From contig JANDLU010000004.1 in assembly GCA_024330215.1 (NCBI GenBank), forward strand, positions 1-64,000: a stretch of DNA of 64,000 nucleotides, in the 5' to 3' direction. The DNA is from Candidatus Gaiellasilicea maunaloa (lineage in GTDB: Bacteria > Actinomycetota > Thermoleophilia > Gaiellales > Gaiellaceae). Positions 6,024 through 20,918 of this stretch are shown one piece after another. Below the pieces are notes generated by a model. The model made no database searches. It saw only the letters and a list, made by a program, of their open reading frames with translations, and had not been told where the DNA came from. Within the stretch, counting starts at the first letter, position 1, and each line of letters starts with the position of its first letter. The position numbers and the translations under genes were made by a program.

Positions 6024-6905
6024 CTAGACGGTTGCGCGGGCGGCGCCGCCGAGGCGGGCCTTCAGGCGCAGGATCGCCTTCGTGTGCAGCTGCGAGACCC
6101 GCGACTCGGTGACGCCGAGCACCTCGCCGATCTCGCGCAGGGTCAGCTCCTCGTAGTAGTAGAGAGTGACCACGAGCTTCTCGCGCTCGGGGAGGCGTGC
6201 GATCGACTCGCCGAGCGCCTCGCGTAGCTCCGTCTGTGCGAGCGCCGTCTGGGGCTCGGGGCCGAGCGTGTCCTCGATCGTGTCGAGAAGCGCGATCTGG
6301 TCACCGCCGTCGGAGGCCGTCCAGAGCTCGTCGAGCGCGGCGATCGAGGAGCGGGAGATCTCCGTGAGACTGCTGTCGAGCTCGTCCTGCGTGAGCCCGA
6401 GCTTGCCGGCGATCTCTTCGTCTGTGGGGGCACGATGGAGCTTCTTCTCGAGCTCGGCGATCGCGCGCTCGATGTCGCGTGCCCGCGCCCGAACCGAGCG
6501 CGGCACCCAGTCGAGGGCGCGGAGCTCGTCGATGATCGCGCCCTTGATCCGCGTGATCGCGTACGTCTCGAACTTGATCTCCCGGTCCGGGTCGTAGCGC
6601 TCGATCGCCCCGATCAGACCGAGCAGGCCGTACGAGACGAGATCGCCCTCGTCCACGTGCGCCGGCAGGCCGCTCCCGAGCCGGCCGGCGACGAACTTGA
6701 CGAGCGGCGCGTAGGTGAGGATCAGTCGGTCGCGGACTGCTCGGTCGCGCGTGCGCCGGTACTCCTGCCAGAGCGCGCTCGTGTCCTCGGTCTTCGAGCT
6801 CACTTCAGGATGACGCTTCGTCGGCGGGGTGCGCTGGGTGGTGACGCAGGGAGCCTCGCTAGCGCGCTTATCGAGGCGACCGAGGACGCCGCGATCGCGC
6901 CGCAC
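6024..6905 (-). CDS. whiG: RNA polymerase sigma factor, FliA/WhiG family
   Basis: A sigma-70 group 3 factor. Region 2 includes YAPLVKFVAGRLGSGLP, GDLVSYGLLGLIGAIERYDP and the diagnostic IKGAIIDELRALDWVPRSVR of the FliA/WhiG family. Region 3 (ELEKKLHRAPTDEEIAGKLGL) and region 4 (LPEREKLVVTLYYYEELTLREIGEVLGVTESRVSQLH) follow. In actinobacteria this family directs developmental or motility genes; no flagellar genes lie nearby. Two starts are possible. GTG at 6905 has a GGGA upstream and gives 293 aa. GTG at 6803 gives 259 aa, closer to the usual length, and drops a low-complexity leader. The C-terminal domain is intact. Confidence 0.9.
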   Translation of the reverse strand: MRRDRGVLGRLDKRASEAPCVTTQRTPPTKRHPEVSSKTEDTSALWQEYRRTRDRAVRDRLILTYAPLVKFVAGRLGSGLPAHVDEGDLVSYGLLGLIGAIERYDPDREIKFETYAITRIKGAIIDELRALDWVPRSVRARARDIERAIAELEKKLHRAPTDEEIAGKLGLTQDELDSSLTEISRSSIAALDELWTASDGGDQIALLDTIEDTLGPEPQTALAQTELREALGESIARLPEREKLVVTLYYYEELTLREIGEVLGVTESRVSQLHTKAILRLKARLGGAARATV

Positions 6906-8332: not shown

Positions 8333-8524
8333 ACTAGGTCGCCTTTGCCGAGCGTCAATGGGCCGCGTCGCTCATGTCACTGGGCCCGGCTCTGGCTTCC
8401 GCGACGGGACGGAAGCGGCGGGAGCGCGTGTCCCGGCTGCTCCGGCTGCGTCGCTTCGACTGCGATCTGTTCGGCCGCCGCAAGGCCGGAGAGCGTCGGC
8501 CGGAGCTCGGGCTACGATGGCCCG

Positions 8525-9295
8525 ATGTCCTCGTCGCGTATCCGGCTGACCCAGGGCTACCCGTATTTTGCCCGGGTCGTCTCGGTGGTTGCGGCCCGGC
8601 TCCCCCAGCACGTCCGGGACGAGTGCGAGTCGGAGGCGCTCTGCGCGATGGTCGAGGCGGCGGACGAGTGGCGAGACGGCGGCGCTCCGTTTCGACTGTT
8701 CGTCGCGGAGCGGATCAAGCAGCGGATGCTGGACGAGGCTCGGCGGGCCGATCGCGTGGACCGTTCGACGGGCAGCAGCCGGAACCCCTTGTCGCTCAGT
8801 TCGATCTTGATCGACGAGGAGGCCGGCGGCGAGACCCTCGCAGATCGTCTGGAGGCCACCGGGCCGGCCGCGGTCGATCCCCACTCGCGCGCGGTAGCCC
8901 TCGAGCGGCTCGAGGCGCTCGCCGCGCTCCCGGCGAGACTGAGGCTGGCGCTGACGCTCGACCGCGCGGACGCCTCGTCGGCGCTCGGCGTCTCGGTGGG
9001 ACACGTCGACAGGTTTCGCCGCACGGTTCGCGACGCGCTCGACGCGGAGAATCGGTCGCCGGCCGACGAGCTCGCGGCCTCCGGGATCGTCACGATCTCT
9101 CCGCGCGAGCTGACCGTACTCCGCTCGGTCTCGGGGGGCGCCACGAACGCCGAGATCGCCGACGATCTCGGCGTCTCGATCGAGACGATCAAGTCGCACG
9201 TCAAGCAGGTTCTCACCAAGCTCGAGGCACGCAGCCGAGCCCACGCCGTCCACCTCGCTTGGGAGGCGGACTGGTGGGACGTAGCGGCCGCGTGA
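8525..9295 (+). CDS. sigma-like protein fused to a LuxR-type HTH domain
   Basis: A 256-residue regulator. The C-terminus (about 190-250) is a LuxR/GerE DNA-binding domain: ISPRELTVLRSVSGGATNAEI, DDLGVSIETIKSHV, KQVLTKL. The N-terminal part resembles sigma region 2 of the FliA/WhiG type: DECESEALCAMVEAADEWR, then RIKQRMLDEARRADRVDRS at about 63-81. Residues 98-170 resemble a degenerate sigma region 4 (ETLADRLE, then LEALAALPARLRLALTL, then SALGVSVGHVDRFRRTV). There is no receiver domain. The ATG at 8525 was chosen because upstream codons look non-coding. It may be a sigma-derived regulator that has lost promoter-melting residues; its partners are unknown. Confidence 0.7.
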   Translation: MSSSRIRLTQGYPYFARVVSVVAARLPQHVRDECESEALCAMVEAADEWRDGGAPFRLFVAERIKQRMLDEARRADRVDRSTGSSRNPLSLSSILIDEEAGGETLADRLEATGPAAVDPHSRAVALERLEALAALPARLRLALTLDRADASSALGVSVGHVDRFRRTVRDALDAENRSPADELAASGIVTISPRELTVLRSVSGGATNAEIADDLGVSIETIKSHVKQVLTKLEARSRAHAVHLAWEADWWDVAAA

Positions 9296-9320: not shown

Positions 9321-10042
9321 CTAGGCTTCAGACGGCGATCGCGACCGGGTGGAACGACGGCCTCTCGGGCGAGCACCCGCTCGAGCGCCTCGACGCAGCC
9401 GGCGTCGAAGGCAGTGCCGGCCTCGCTCCGCAGGAGCGCGAGCGCGCGGTGGTGATCCCAGGCATCCCGGTCGACACGACGCGAGCGAAGCGCGTCGTAG
9501 ACGTCGCAGACCGTGAGGACGCGCGTTTCGAGCGGTAGCTCCGCGGCGGCCACGCCATGCGGGTAGCCGGCGCCGTCGAGCCGCTCGTGATGGTCTCGAA
9601 CGAGGCCGCGGACGCGGTGCGAGAACCCGAGCTCCCCGAGCAGCGCATGACCCGAGACCGGATGCCGGCGCACGATCTCGAACTCGCGCTCGTCGCGAGC
9701 TGGGCTTCTTCAGGATCTCGTCGGGGACGGACAGCTTGCCGATGTCGTGGAGGAGACCGTCGATCGCAAGCTCGCGCAGGCGCGAAGCCGGGAGCCCGAG
9801 CTCCTCGCCGACACGCACGGCAAGCAGAGCGACACGGCGCGTATGACCTTCGGTGTAGGAGTCCTTGTCAGCGAGGAGGCGAGTCAGGGAGCCGACCTGC
9901 GAGCCGAGGAACGCCTCCTCGGCGAAGACGAGCTCGGCGCCGCGGGGTCTCCCGCGAGAGGTCGAGAGGGCGCCGCACGCAGCAGGTCGAGCGCTAGGGC
10001 GCCGCCCGCCGCCAGAACCGGCACGTAGGTTTCTCGCCGCAC
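9321..10042 (-). pseudogene. HD-GYP domain protein (c-di-GMP phosphodiesterase-like), several frameshifts
   Basis: Pieces of one HD-GYP protein are spread over three frames. From GTG 10042 comes VRRETYVPVLAAGGALALDL. In a second frame follow ELVFAEEAFLGSQVGSLTRL, KDSYTEGHTRRVALLAVRV and GLLHDIGKLSVPDEILKKP, including the HD motif. In a third frame come EFEIVRRHPVSGHALLGELG and RDHHERLDGAGYPHG, the GYP signature, then FDAGCVEALERVL. The shifts lie near 9950-9990 and 9690-9700. The third frame has no stop until 8372, deep inside the opposite-strand sigma/LuxR gene, so its true end (9321-9330 in the other frames) is probably also shifted. The gene is almost certainly inactive. Confidence 0.8.
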
Positions 10043-15614: not shown

Positions 15615-18389
15615 CTAGTTGTCGAGCCACCTCCCGTTCCTGGCGCCGAGCTGCAGCGCCGCCGACAGCGCAGCCGCAGCCTGGCGGTTCTTCGCCGACT
15701 GGCCGATCGCCTGGATCGCGATCCCGCCGCCGCCACCTTGAGCCTGGCTCGCACCCTGGCCGAGCCCGTTCAGGTTCGCGGCGGTCGCCGACGAGCCGAC
15801 GCTATTCGACTGGTTCGTCGAGCCGCCGGAGCCGTGGCTGCCGACGCCCACGGGCGTGTTGGAGTTACCGCCCGACAGGCAGCCGCACGTGTCGCGCCCG
15901 AAAGCCTGGATGGCCAACGAGGCGGCAAGCGCGCCCTGCTCGTTCTTTGCTTCCTGACCGATCGCCTGGATCCCGATCCCGCCGGCGCAGCCACAGCCGC
16001 CCGACTGGATCTGCCGGGCGGCCTGCCCCGTCAGGTTGACGTTCAGCGCCTTCGCATCCGAATCGACGCTGTTCGACTGCGATACGTCGCCGCCGTCGCC
16101 GTCACTTGCCACGGCCACCGGCGAGTTGCTGTTCGAGGCGCCGAGCTGGAATGCCCCGGACAGCGCGAGTGCCTCCTGTGCGTTCGACGCCGACTGGCCG
16201 ACCGCCTGGATCGCGATCCCACCCCCGCCGCCTTGAGCCTGGCTCGCGTACTGGCCGAGCCCGTTCAGGTTCGCGGCGGTCGCCGACGACGAGACATCGT
16301 TCGACTGCTCGACCGAGCCGCCGTTGCCGTCGCTCGCCACTCGCACCGGGGAGTTGTCGTTGCTCGCCCCGTCCTGGAGCGCGAACGAGAGGGCCGCGGC
16401 GCCCTGCACGCTCGTCGCCTGCTGACCGATCGCCTGGATGCCGATCCCGCTCGCGCAGCCACAGCCGCCCGACTGGACCTGCTCGGCACCCTGGCCGGTC
16501 AGGTTGACGTTCAGCGCGGTCGCATCCGACTCGACGCTCGACGACTGCGACACCTTGCCGCCGTCGCCGTCGCTCGCGACCCGCACCGGCGAGTTGCTGT
16601 TCGAGGCGCCGTACTGAAGCGCCGCCGACAGCCCGATCGCCGTCTGGTCGTTCGAGGCCGACTGACCGATCGCCTGGATGCCGCCCGAGCCGCCTTGAGC
16701 CTGGCTCGCGCCCTGGCCGAGGCCGTTCAGGTTCGCGGCGGTCGCCGACGAGGAGACGTCGTTCGACTGGTCGACCCAGCCGCCGTCGCCCTCGCTGTCC
16801 ACGCGGACGGGAGCGTTCGTGTTCCCACCCGAGCTGCAACCGCACTCGTCGCGACCGGGGGCCTGCACGGCCAGCGAACCCGCAAGCGCGCCCTGCGTGT
16901 TCGATGCGTTCTGGCCGATTGCCTGGATCCCGTTCGACCCACAGCGGCAGTCGCCGCCGCGCTGAGCCTGGCTCGCGCCCTGCTCGAGGCCGTTCAGGTT
17001 CGCGGCGGTCGCCGACGAGGAGACGTCGTTCGACTGCGTCACCTTGCCGCCGTCGCCGTCGCTCGCGACCCGCACCGGCGAGTTGCTGTTCGAGGCACCG
17101 TACTGCGGCGCCGCCGACAGCGCGATCGCCGTCTGGTCGTTCGAGGCCGACTGGCCGATCGCCTGCGTACCGCCGGAGCCACCCTGCCCCTGCCCGGCAC
17201 CCTGGCCGGTCAGGTTCAGGTTCCCCGCCGCCGCGGACGAACCGACGCTGTTCGACTGCGAGACGTTACCGTCGTCGCCGTCGCTGCCGACCCGGACCGG
17301 GGCGTTCGTGTTCGACGCACCGGATTGGGACGCACCCGAGAGGGCTGCTGCCGACTGCGTGTTCGCGGCATCCTGGCCGATCGCCTGGATTCCGCCCGAC
17401 CCGCAGCCGCAACCGCCGGCCTGAGACTGGCTCGCACCCTGCTCGAGCCCGTTCAGGTTCGCGGCCGTCGCCGACGAGGCGACGCTCGACGACTGCGAGA
17501 CGTTCCCGCCGGCCCCGGGGCTGAGAACCCGCACCGGGGTGTTCGTGTTGCTCGCGCCGTTCTGCCGAGCGGCGGAAAGAGCGCCCGCCGACTGGGCGTT
17601 GTCTGCATCCTGGCCGATCGCCTGGGTGCCACCGGAGCCACCCTGCGTCTGATCCGCGTCTTGCCCGGTCAGGTTCAGGTTTGCGGCCTTCGCGGACGAG
17701 TCGACGCTGTTCGACTGCTCGACCGAGCCGTCGTCGCCGGGGCTGAGAACGCGAACGGAGATGTTCGTGTTCGTCGCACCGCTCTGCTCGGCCGCCGACG
17801 CGGCTGCGGCTTCCTGCTCGCTGTCCGCATCCTGAGCGATCGCCTGCGTACCCGAGCCGCCGGCCGCCTGGTCGGCGTCCTGTCCCGTGGCGTTCAGATT
17901 CGCGGCGGTCGCGTCGGACTCGACGCTATTCGTCTGCGAGACGTCGCCGTCGTTCCCGGGGCTGAGAACCCGCACCGGGATGTTTGTGTTGCTCGCGCCG
18001 TCCTGCTTCGCGACGGAGAGCGCCTGCGCGGCCTGGCTCGAATCTGCCTCCTGGCCGATCGCCTGCGTGCCTCCCTCGCACCCGCACGGGCCGCTCTGCG
18101 TCTGGTCGGCCGACTGGCCGGTGAGGTTCGCGTTCGCCGCCGTCGCATCGGAAGCGACGGTGTTCGACTGCGAAACGTCACCGCTCGAGCCGGGACTCAG
18201 AACGCGAACGGAGATGTTCTGGTTCGTCGGTTGACTCTGCGAGGCGCCCGACAGGGTCCCCGCAGCCTGGCCGCTCGAGGCAGCCTGGCCGGCCGCCTGA
18301 GCGGCAGGATCTCCCGACTCGGCCGCCGCCTGGCCCGCGCCCACGAGGAGCCCGAGCGTCGCGGCGGCAACCGCGAGTATCCGTTTCAT
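15615..18389 (-). CDS. secreted Gln/Asn/Ser-rich protein with 11 tandem repeats
   Basis: A 924-residue exported protein. The signal peptide is ILAVAAATLGLLVGAGQAAAES. Then follow 11 repeats of about 73-88 residues. Each has a core like 'NTNxPVRVxSxGDxGxVxQSNxV', a second unit 'SxATAANLNxxGQxASQxQGG' and a third 'GIQAIGQxAxNxQxAxALSxAxQxGAS'. Regularly spaced Gln, Asn and Ser and alternating small hydrophobics suggest a beta-solenoid or a curli-like amyloid, as CsgA repeats also space Gln and Asn. CxC pairs (for example GGCGCGSGG) sit in loops of some repeats. There is no membrane anchor; the protein ends GRWLDN. The start has a strong AAGGAGAG. It is 76 bp downstream of the partner gene at 18466, so probably in the same unit. 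No named family recognised. Confidence 0.75.
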   Translation of the reverse strand: MKRILAVAAATLGLLVGAGQAAAESGDPAAQAAGQAASSGQAAGTLSGASQSQPTNQNISVRVLSPGSSGDVSQSNTVASDATAANANLTGQSADQTQSGPCGCEGGTQAIGQEADSSQAAQALSVAKQDGASNTNIPVRVLSPGNDGDVSQTNSVESDATAANLNATGQDADQAAGGSGTQAIAQDADSEQEAAAASAAEQSGATNTNISVRVLSPGDDGSVEQSNSVDSSAKAANLNLTGQDADQTQGGSGGTQAIGQDADNAQSAGALSAARQNGASNTNTPVRVLSPGAGGNVSQSSSVASSATAANLNGLEQGASQSQAGGCGCGSGGIQAIGQDAANTQSAAALSGASQSGASNTNAPVRVGSDGDDGNVSQSNSVGSSAAAGNLNLTGQGAGQGQGGSGGTQAIGQSASNDQTAIALSAAPQYGASNSNSPVRVASDGDGGKVTQSNDVSSSATAANLNGLEQGASQAQRGGDCRCGSNGIQAIGQNASNTQGALAGSLAVQAPGRDECGCSSGGNTNAPVRVDSEGDGGWVDQSNDVSSSATAANLNGLGQGASQAQGGSGGIQAIGQSASNDQTAIGLSAALQYGASNSNSPVRVASDGDGGKVSQSSSVESDATALNVNLTGQGAEQVQSGGCGCASGIGIQAIGQQATSVQGAAALSFALQDGASNDNSPVRVASDGNGGSVEQSNDVSSSATAANLNGLGQYASQAQGGGGGIAIQAVGQSASNAQEALALSGAFQLGASNSNSPVAVASDGDGGDVSQSNSVDSDAKALNVNLTGQAARQIQSGGCGCAGGIGIQAIGQEAKNEQGALAASLAIQAFGRDTCGCLSGGNSNTPVGVGSHGSGGSTNQSNSVGSSATAANLNGLGQGASQAQGGGGGIAIQAIGQSAKNRQAAAALSAALQLGARNGRWLDN

Positions 18390-20195: not shown

Positions 20196-20918
20196 GTGAG
20201 CGACGGGATGCCAACCGAGACCGATCAGCTTCTGCAGGCATGGTGCGACGAAGGAGATGCCGATGCCCGCGCGCAATTGATCGAGCGGCACCTGCCGCTC
20301 GTCCGAGCGCTCGCGCGGCGCTTCTCGCACCGGGGCGAGCAGCTCGACGATCTCGTCCAGGCGGGGTCGCTCGGGCTGATCAAGGCGGTCGACCGCTACG
20401 ATCCCGGTCGCGGCTCGTCGCTGGCTGCCTATGCGATCCCGACGATCGTCGGCGAGATCCAGCGCTACCTTCGCGACAGTGCCTCCACGGTGAGGCTGCC
20501 TCGCCGACAGCAGGAGCTCGCCGTCGAGCTCGCCCGGCAGAGCGATGCGCTTGCGGCCGAGCACGGTCGGACCCCCACGCTCCGGGAGCTCGCAGCGGCG
20601 ACAGCGCTTCCCTCGGACGAGGTCGCCACTGCGCTCGCCGACGTCGCAGCCGCTCGGCCGGTGGCGCTCGATGAGAACACCGAGGAAGCCGAGGACGCAG
20701 GGGCCGCACACCGGCTCGAGCTCGGAGTCGAGCGCGTCATGCTCGCACGAGGACTTCGGCGGCTCGACCACCGCGAGCGCCGGATCGTGCAGCTGCGCTA
20801 CTTCGGGGGCCTCAGCCAGCGCGGGATCGCCGCCGAGGTCGGGCTTTCGCAAGTGCACGTCAACAGGCTGCTGACCCGGTCGCTCGGCAAGCTCCGCCGG
20901 GAGATCGGCCAGACGTAG
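20196..20918 (+). CDS. RNA polymerase sigma factor, SigB/SigF/SigG group
   Basis: A 240-residue sigma-70 group 3 factor. Region 2: IERHLPLVRALARRFSHRGE, LDDLVQAGSLGLIKAVDRYDP, and SSLAAYAIPTIVGEIQRYLRD. Region 3: RLPRRQQELAVELAR and GRTPTLRELAAATAL. Region 4: LDHRERRIVQLRYFGGLSQRG and AAEVGLSQVHVNRLL. The GTG at 20196 is preferred because the promoter places the transcript start there; an ATG at 20208 is the alternative. No anti-sigma or anti-anti-sigma gene lies beside it. Its neighbours suggest it controls the divergent surface genes, but no matching promoter motif is proven. Confidence 0.9.
   Translation: MSDGMPTETDQLLQAWCDEGDADARAQLIERHLPLVRALARRFSHRGEQLDDLVQAGSLGLIKAVDRYDPGRGSSLAAYAIPTIVGEIQRYLRDSASTVRLPRRQQELAVELARQSDALAAEHGRTPTLRELAAATALPSDEVATALADVAAARPVALDENTEEAEDAGAAHRLELGVERVMLARGLRRLDHRERRIVQLRYFGGLSQRGIAAEVGLSQVHVNRLLTRSLGKLRREIGQT

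Follow-up and report, generated by a model that had tools for sequence, protein, structure and literature searches.

The window analysed here, a 64-kb stretch of DNA, carries on its forward strand a gene encoding a protein of 256 amino acids (ATG at 8525, stop codon at 9293-9295), hereafter the window protein, in which a sigma region 2, a region-4-like domain and a LuxR-type helix-turn-helix (HTH) follow one another. The features of the locus are as follows:

6024-6905, reverse strand: complete FliA/WhiG-type sigma factor, kept across the taxonomic family at 75-85% identity
7248-7320, forward strand: tRNA-Trp, adjoining the WhiG-type sigma gene
8513-8518, forward strand: TACGAT, a -10-like hexamer 6 bases 5' of the ATG, seen in the sequence
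8525-9295, forward strand: gene with the order sigma 2, sigma-4-like, LuxR HTH (open frame, codon statistics, homologues)
8525-8770, forward strand: sigma-70 region 2, residues 1-82, three helices, FliA/WhiG-like (profiles, shuffles, AF2 pLDDT 85-95, structural matches)
8771-8878, forward strand: linker, residues 83-118, of low model confidence, with a stretch, GGETLADRLEATGP, that resembles region 3.2 by eye
8879-9052, forward strand: shortened region-4-like domain, residues 119-176 (profile bits against shuffles, AF2 pLDDT mostly 78-92)
9086-9265, forward strand: LuxR/GerE HTH, residues 188-247 (Pfam GerE, AF2 pLDDT 93-97, structural match)

Judged from base composition and codon usage, 8525-9295 looks like a coding gene. 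The GC content per codon position in its frame is 0.72/0.52/0.88, and the codon-usage score per codon is +0.37 in the gene frame, compared to -0.66 to -0.77 in the other two forward frames and at most +0.01 in the frames of the opposite strand. The TACGAT hexamer supports 8525 as the probable true start, because the gap between hexamer and ATG is the spacing typical of leaderless actinobacterial transcripts; only 6 such TANNNT-N6-ATG arrangements occur in the whole window, both strands included.

The assignment of the N-terminal part to sigma region 2 is secure. The NCBIfam model FliA_WhiG matches residues 15-83 (E 3.5e-7), and Pfam Sigma70_r2 matches residues 18-77 (E 1.8e-4) at 21.7 bits, slightly below its curated cut-off of 24. 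The NCBIfam sigma70-ECF superfamily model spans residues 18-234 (E 1.6e-10; 40.9 bits against a curated cut-off of 42.9), reaching residue 234 by taking the GerE HTH as region 4, which recalls how alike the two HTH types are; the NCBIfam cut-offs for full-length sigma subfamilies are far from reached. For shuffle tests, in which the same residues were permuted 2,000 times, profiles were built from other sigma factors of the same taxonomic group, taking in the fused and split relatives described below and leaving out the window protein. Against such a region 2 profile, residues 1-100 scored 31.7 bits and the best of the 2,000 shuffles 14.7, and the score of region 2 falls to 12.1 bits once all fused and split relatives leave the profile. 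The window protein has E, F, F, R and K, respectively, at the RpoD-numbered positions 403, 427, 430, 434 and 436, which we take to contact the core or the -10 strand; at such positions its residue types are mostly those of its WhiG-type relatives or conservative changes. Two glycines of region 2.2 are changed to alanine. Alignment with the WhiG-type sigma of the window revealed no region 3 domain in the window protein.

The middle of the protein is more worn. Against a region 4 profile that takes in the fused and split relatives, residues 95-180 scored 15.1 bits, where the top score among 2,000 shuffles was 8.7; without those relatives in the profile, the score was 5.2 bits. Approximately 6 residues are absent between helices 1 and 2 of this domain, so that the window protein has a shortened rather than a complete region 4, with a score of 5.2 to 15.1 bits depending on the profile. 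By sequence alone, the region 4 assignment is weak; the relatives, the modest excess over the shuffles and the structure model together support it.

At the C-terminus, Pfam GerE matches residues 191-245 (E 1e-16; 60.7 bits against a cut-off of 23.5), and the recognition helix, ETIKSHVKQVLTKL, is standard. Residues 188-251 match LuxR HTHs with Z values of 10 to 13 in VIA-align, including the HTH of the response regulator spr1814 for the GerE domain (Z 12.9, rmsd 1.0 over 63 residues). No receiver, autoinducer or other known sensor domain was found N-terminal to it, where the Pfam and NCBIfam matches are sigma factors only.

AlphaFold models were obtained with four sequences (mean pLDDT 61) and with 13 sequences from the relative loci (mean pLDDT 82), the latter showing three helical domains joined by flexible linkers. 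In the 13-sequence model, sigma 2 comprises helices 3-23, 28-48 and 56-82 (pLDDT 85-95), and the middle domain comprises helices 119-133, 137-144, 147-154 and 158-176, which is the usual four-helix order of region 4 (mostly 78-92). The GerE helices lie at 193-247 (93-97), a confidence that is not fully independent evidence because region 4 of the split sigma rows sat over the GerE columns of the 13-row alignment. In Foldseek, the matches listed for the four-sequence, low-confidence model were essentially all sigma factors or transcription complexes, and those listed for the 13-sequence model (best E 3.9e-3) were partly sigma factors, partly LuxR proteins. Residues 1-89 match domain 2 of several sigma factors with Z values of 7 to 9 in VIA-align; these values, like those of the HTH, are for such small helical domains supportive rather than proof. 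A profile of the four known fusions, searched against solved structures, found FliA region 2 at E 1.8e-19 and matched SigA/SigB region 4 and LuxR HTHs, each in a separate stretch.

These results agree with the original prediction of a single protein built from a FliA/WhiG-type region 2, a degraded form of region 4 and, at its end, a standard LuxR HTH: the profiles, shuffles and model confirm the architecture as a whole, with the N-terminal part (FliA_WhiG E 3.5e-7) and the C-terminal end (GerE well over its cut-off) clear and the middle modest by sequence. The prediction was to fall if residues 1-175 gave no sigma match, and matches are present there in Pfam, NCBIfam, the shuffle-tested profiles and the model.

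The fusion is not a one-off. The original prediction had proposed a survey, and when 103 genomes of the taxonomic family were searched with a profile, four fusions, the window protein included, and two split pairs were found. The three others, P0003 (G262), L062 (G187; 51% identical to P0003) and L063 (G289), have the same sigma2-sigma4-LuxR order in one open reading frame; these three also came to light through queries with the full protein and then with P0003. In P0003, Sigma70_r2, Sigma70_r4 and GerE each exceed the Pfam cut-off. In the split pairs, from G015 and G284, a clear sigma gene is followed by a LuxR HTH gene with a 4-base GTGA stop/start overlap. A third pair, found in G135 through its LuxR domain rather than by the profile search, has a more diverged sigma, and the start of its LuxR gene overlaps the sigma stop codon as ATGA (4 bp). 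The split pairs are probably translationally coupled, and as the two parts are fused in some genomes and probably coupled in others, they may well work together. A split-type LuxR domain with no sigma frame seen upstream (L075; G176, contig C29, 38384-38578, reverse strand) is possibly the orphaned half of such a pair.

A query with the sigma part gave no orthologue among the 60 nearest genomes, where the identifiable matches were plain sigma factors. The window protein, searched against the contigs of its own genome, matched only an unrelated LuxR protein. Searches of 399 class-level and 396 phylum-level genomes yielded no further case at the threshold, apart from LuxR-only matches and one plain sigma factor; with only six candidates scored for each genome, their sensitivity was reduced and diverged fusions may have been missed. 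Absence from one genome also means little, because several genomes are incomplete assemblies. In the phages, plasmids and viral contigs searched, no fusion was found, and the viral matches were plain sigma factors. One further candidate, L120 in G432, proved to be a plain WhiG-type sigma without a LuxR gene behind it.

To compare the erosion of the sigma part, we scored regions 2 and 4 with a sigma profile that leaves out the whole fused and split set. The split sigmas gave 84/34 (L067), 75/33 (L065) and 45/17.5 bits (L071) for regions 2/4, and the fused proteins gave 68/20 (L063), 32/16 (P0003), 31.5/20 (L062) and, for the window protein, 12/5 bits. The split pairs thus show the highest sigma likeness and the window protein, the most eroded of the set, the lowest. 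This bears on the proposal that the promoter-reading domain had been replaced: it is plausible for the window protein only, where region 4 is that worn, and does not extend to the three fused relatives, which keep region 4 with the LuxR domain added behind it, nor to the three genomes in which LuxR is a gene of its own overlapping the sigma stop codon. The original prediction also called the sigma part a "remnant"; that it is non-functional is not established.

The sigma tree places the window protein, on a long branch, with P0003 and L062 (support 92/88). The GerE tree unites the LuxR domains of the other three fusions with those of the split pairs in a single clade (98/93); the window LuxR domain falls outside it, nearer to response-regulator HTHs than the LuxR domains of the other fusions are. 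The tree hints at a separate origin of this domain, but the test does not reject a single clade (p-AU 0.295) and gives a separate origin no advantage over a shared one. Most simply, the sigma and LuxR modules became associated once, long ago, and the window lineage then diverged fast; its LuxR domain may also have been exchanged later on. Short LuxR HTH proteins of 115-125 aa with an AERxxILxRY N-terminus are common in the taxonomic family; they are not supported as the source of the HTH, as the window domain groups apart from them.

The window gene sits in a variable part of the genome. The WhiG-type sigma gene and tRNA-Trp are kept as a pair in 10/10 relative loci (L229-L238), and the DNA beyond the tRNA differs in each relative genome examined. 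A mobile island beside tRNA-Trp was considered: the far side is variable, but a search of the window for exact copies of the tRNA end found none above 12 bases, which leaves an integrated element unproven. Behind the tRNA of G003 lies an integrase-like frame, its SAM-like domain slightly below cut-off. Directly downstream of the window gene, and convergent with it, an HD-GYP-like gene (9321-9900, reverse strand) has its HD motif and its later part in different frames with a break near 9690, which points to a pseudogene or a sequencing error. The genes beside the window gene include no anti-sigma factor, sensor or conserved target, none of them points to a regulon, and no shared neighbourhood among the fusions was seen at the loci compared.

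Large exported Fn3/Ig-type proteins are encoded near the sigma/LuxR loci of G289 and G284, and none beside the G135 pair. One, with a phosphoesterase domain, lies by a fused locus (L127:1192-4489), where the next frame overlaps the 3' end of the fused gene; another, with CBM96/metallophosphatase domains, lies by a split locus (L128:1411-5268).

Region 2 of the window protein is most like that of FliA/WhiG (sigma-28 type) in NCBIfam and PDB, and the protein differs from these factors in having no region 3, an eroded region 4 and an additional C-terminal LuxR HTH. Sigma-I comes nearest in design and is, to our knowledge, the sole clearly comparable solved case. SigI of Bacilli and Clostridia likewise combines a sigma 2 domain with an HTH that is not a region 4; region 2 is present, region 4 is absent and the -35 element is read by an unrelated HTH domain (PMC10575876). 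The C-terminal domain of sigma-I is however unrelated to LuxR/GerE, whereas the window protein has a plain GerE HTH with the region-4-like domain still there. SigI models match residues up to 119 only (E 4e-6 to 2e-5, far below cut-off), and a SigI-type C-terminal domain is not found in the window protein.

ECF factors with C-terminal extensions (ECF41, sigma-J) similarly consist of sigma 2 and 4 plus a fused C-terminal domain. In the available portion of an ECF review, the fused domains are SnoaL-like, YCII-related, transmembrane or anti-sigma parts, and LuxR is mentioned once, as a separate regulator (PMC8999054). The overlapping sigma/LuxR pairs recall SigO-RsoA of Bacillus subtilis and T4 gp55/gp33, in which sigma roles are split over two cooperating proteins and the second protein gives the missing sigma part or co-activates (PMC10141391; available portion of PMC7892883). 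Different from these systems, the partner here is a LuxR HTH, and the adjacent sigma gene keeps regions 2 and 4. With LuxR-type regulators of the NarL/FixJ/GerE kind, the window protein shares the C-terminal HTH, but it has a sigma-derived N-terminus in place of their receiver or ligand domain. A 2012 survey of 991 actinobacterial LuxR proteins uses "sigma" once only, for another protein (PMC3466318). Searches of the open-access literature turned up no account of a sigma/LuxR fusion.

Taken together, the window protein belongs to a small, fast-evolving lineage of the sigma-70 family, so far in one taxonomic family, that joins a group III-like sigma without region 3 to a LuxR-type HTH. Sigma factors and activators are normally separate proteins meeting at a promoter. 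Our leading, still tentative reading is that the window protein is a sigma-derived, polymerase-binding regulator that reads upstream DNA by its LuxR HTH, which is favoured by the mostly kept contact residues of region 2, the shortened region 4 and the standard LuxR recognition helix. Region 2 would dock on the beta' clamp helices of RNA polymerase and help with the -10 region, and the LuxR HTH would bind a specific upstream site, probably as a dimer as other GerE domains do, taking over or supplementing -35 reading by the worn region 4. The protein would then act as a sigma factor, or as a co-activator resembling one, that brings along the DNA-binding domain of an activator; we infer polymerase binding, promoter activity, dimerisation and targets of the window protein. 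This reading has to face the weakest sigma signal of the set (12.1/5.2 bits against 84/34 in a split relative), the two region 2.2 glycines now alanine, the lack of a nearby anti-sigma, sensor or conserved target and of a neighbourhood shared among the fusions, the position of the LuxR domain outside the fused/split clade (with a single clade still compatible, p-AU 0.295), and the fact that no close orthologue was found with which to measure purifying selection on the gene.

It is conceivable, though on balance doubtful, that in this protein, as a sigma factor, a dimeric LuxR/GerE activator domain has assumed the role of the -35 reader, with recruitment via region 2 and operator reading via LuxR, and that the likely evolutionary steps, from overlapping genes to a fusion with intact region 4 and on to a fusion with eroded region 4, are visible in one family. 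If true, this would show region 4 promoter recognition handed over to another DNA-binding domain and would supply a small, naturally occurring scaffold on which programmable sigma factors could be built. The presence of the sigma/LuxR pair, joined or as overlapping genes, in a few related genomes suggests a little-described way of steering RNA polymerase.

An alternative nearly as likely as polymerase binding makes the window protein a DNA-binding regulator of the ordinary LuxR type, its sigma part serving off the polymerase as a vestigial scaffold or as a new sensing or dimerisation domain. The sigma part shows the steepest erosion of the set, with region 4 short by about 6 residues, and the LuxR domain, nearer to response-regulator HTHs, is the best conserved (GerE E 1e-16). 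A purely vestigial part is harder to reconcile with region 2: it stands at 31.7 bits against 14.7 for the best shuffle, its model reaches pLDDT 85-95, and most of its residue types at core-binding and melting positions are preserved. We regard it as unlikely that the protein is a sigma competitor or adaptor whose region 2 would hold the clamp helices or mimic the WhiG-type sigma for its anti-sigma, while the LuxR domain tethers it and polymerase is repressed or redirected. A complete WhiG-type sigma is indeed encoded 1.6 kb off, and region 2 is kept while region 4 is worn; but the WhiG gene also occurs in relatives without the window protein, and region 4 is better preserved in the other fusions. 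Least likely is a decaying gene or a functionless chance or assembly fusion, for which the long branches in both trees, the absence of an orthologue from the 60 nearest genomes (sigma-part query), the variable segment beside the tRNA gene and the adjoining frameshifted HD-GYP-like gene are outweighed by a 256-codon open frame with coding-type base composition, the same fusion in three other genomes from separate assemblies and the good model confidence of all three domains.

Some further observations concern the window and the family. At 15615-18389 (reverse strand), the window encodes an exported-looking protein of 924 aa with many similar Asn/Ser/Gln-rich repeats (NxNxPVRVxSxGxxGxVxQSNxVxSxA) and no convincing Pfam match. 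A third sigma gene of the window (20277-20483, forward strand; 270-aa frame) is SigB/SigF-like by its position in the tree. At six loci (L051, L053, L068, L069, L076 and L111), a gene for one of the short LuxR HTH proteins with the AERxxILxRY N-terminus lies 112-142 bp behind a primary-type sigma gene, which makes another sigma/LuxR pairing within the taxonomic family.
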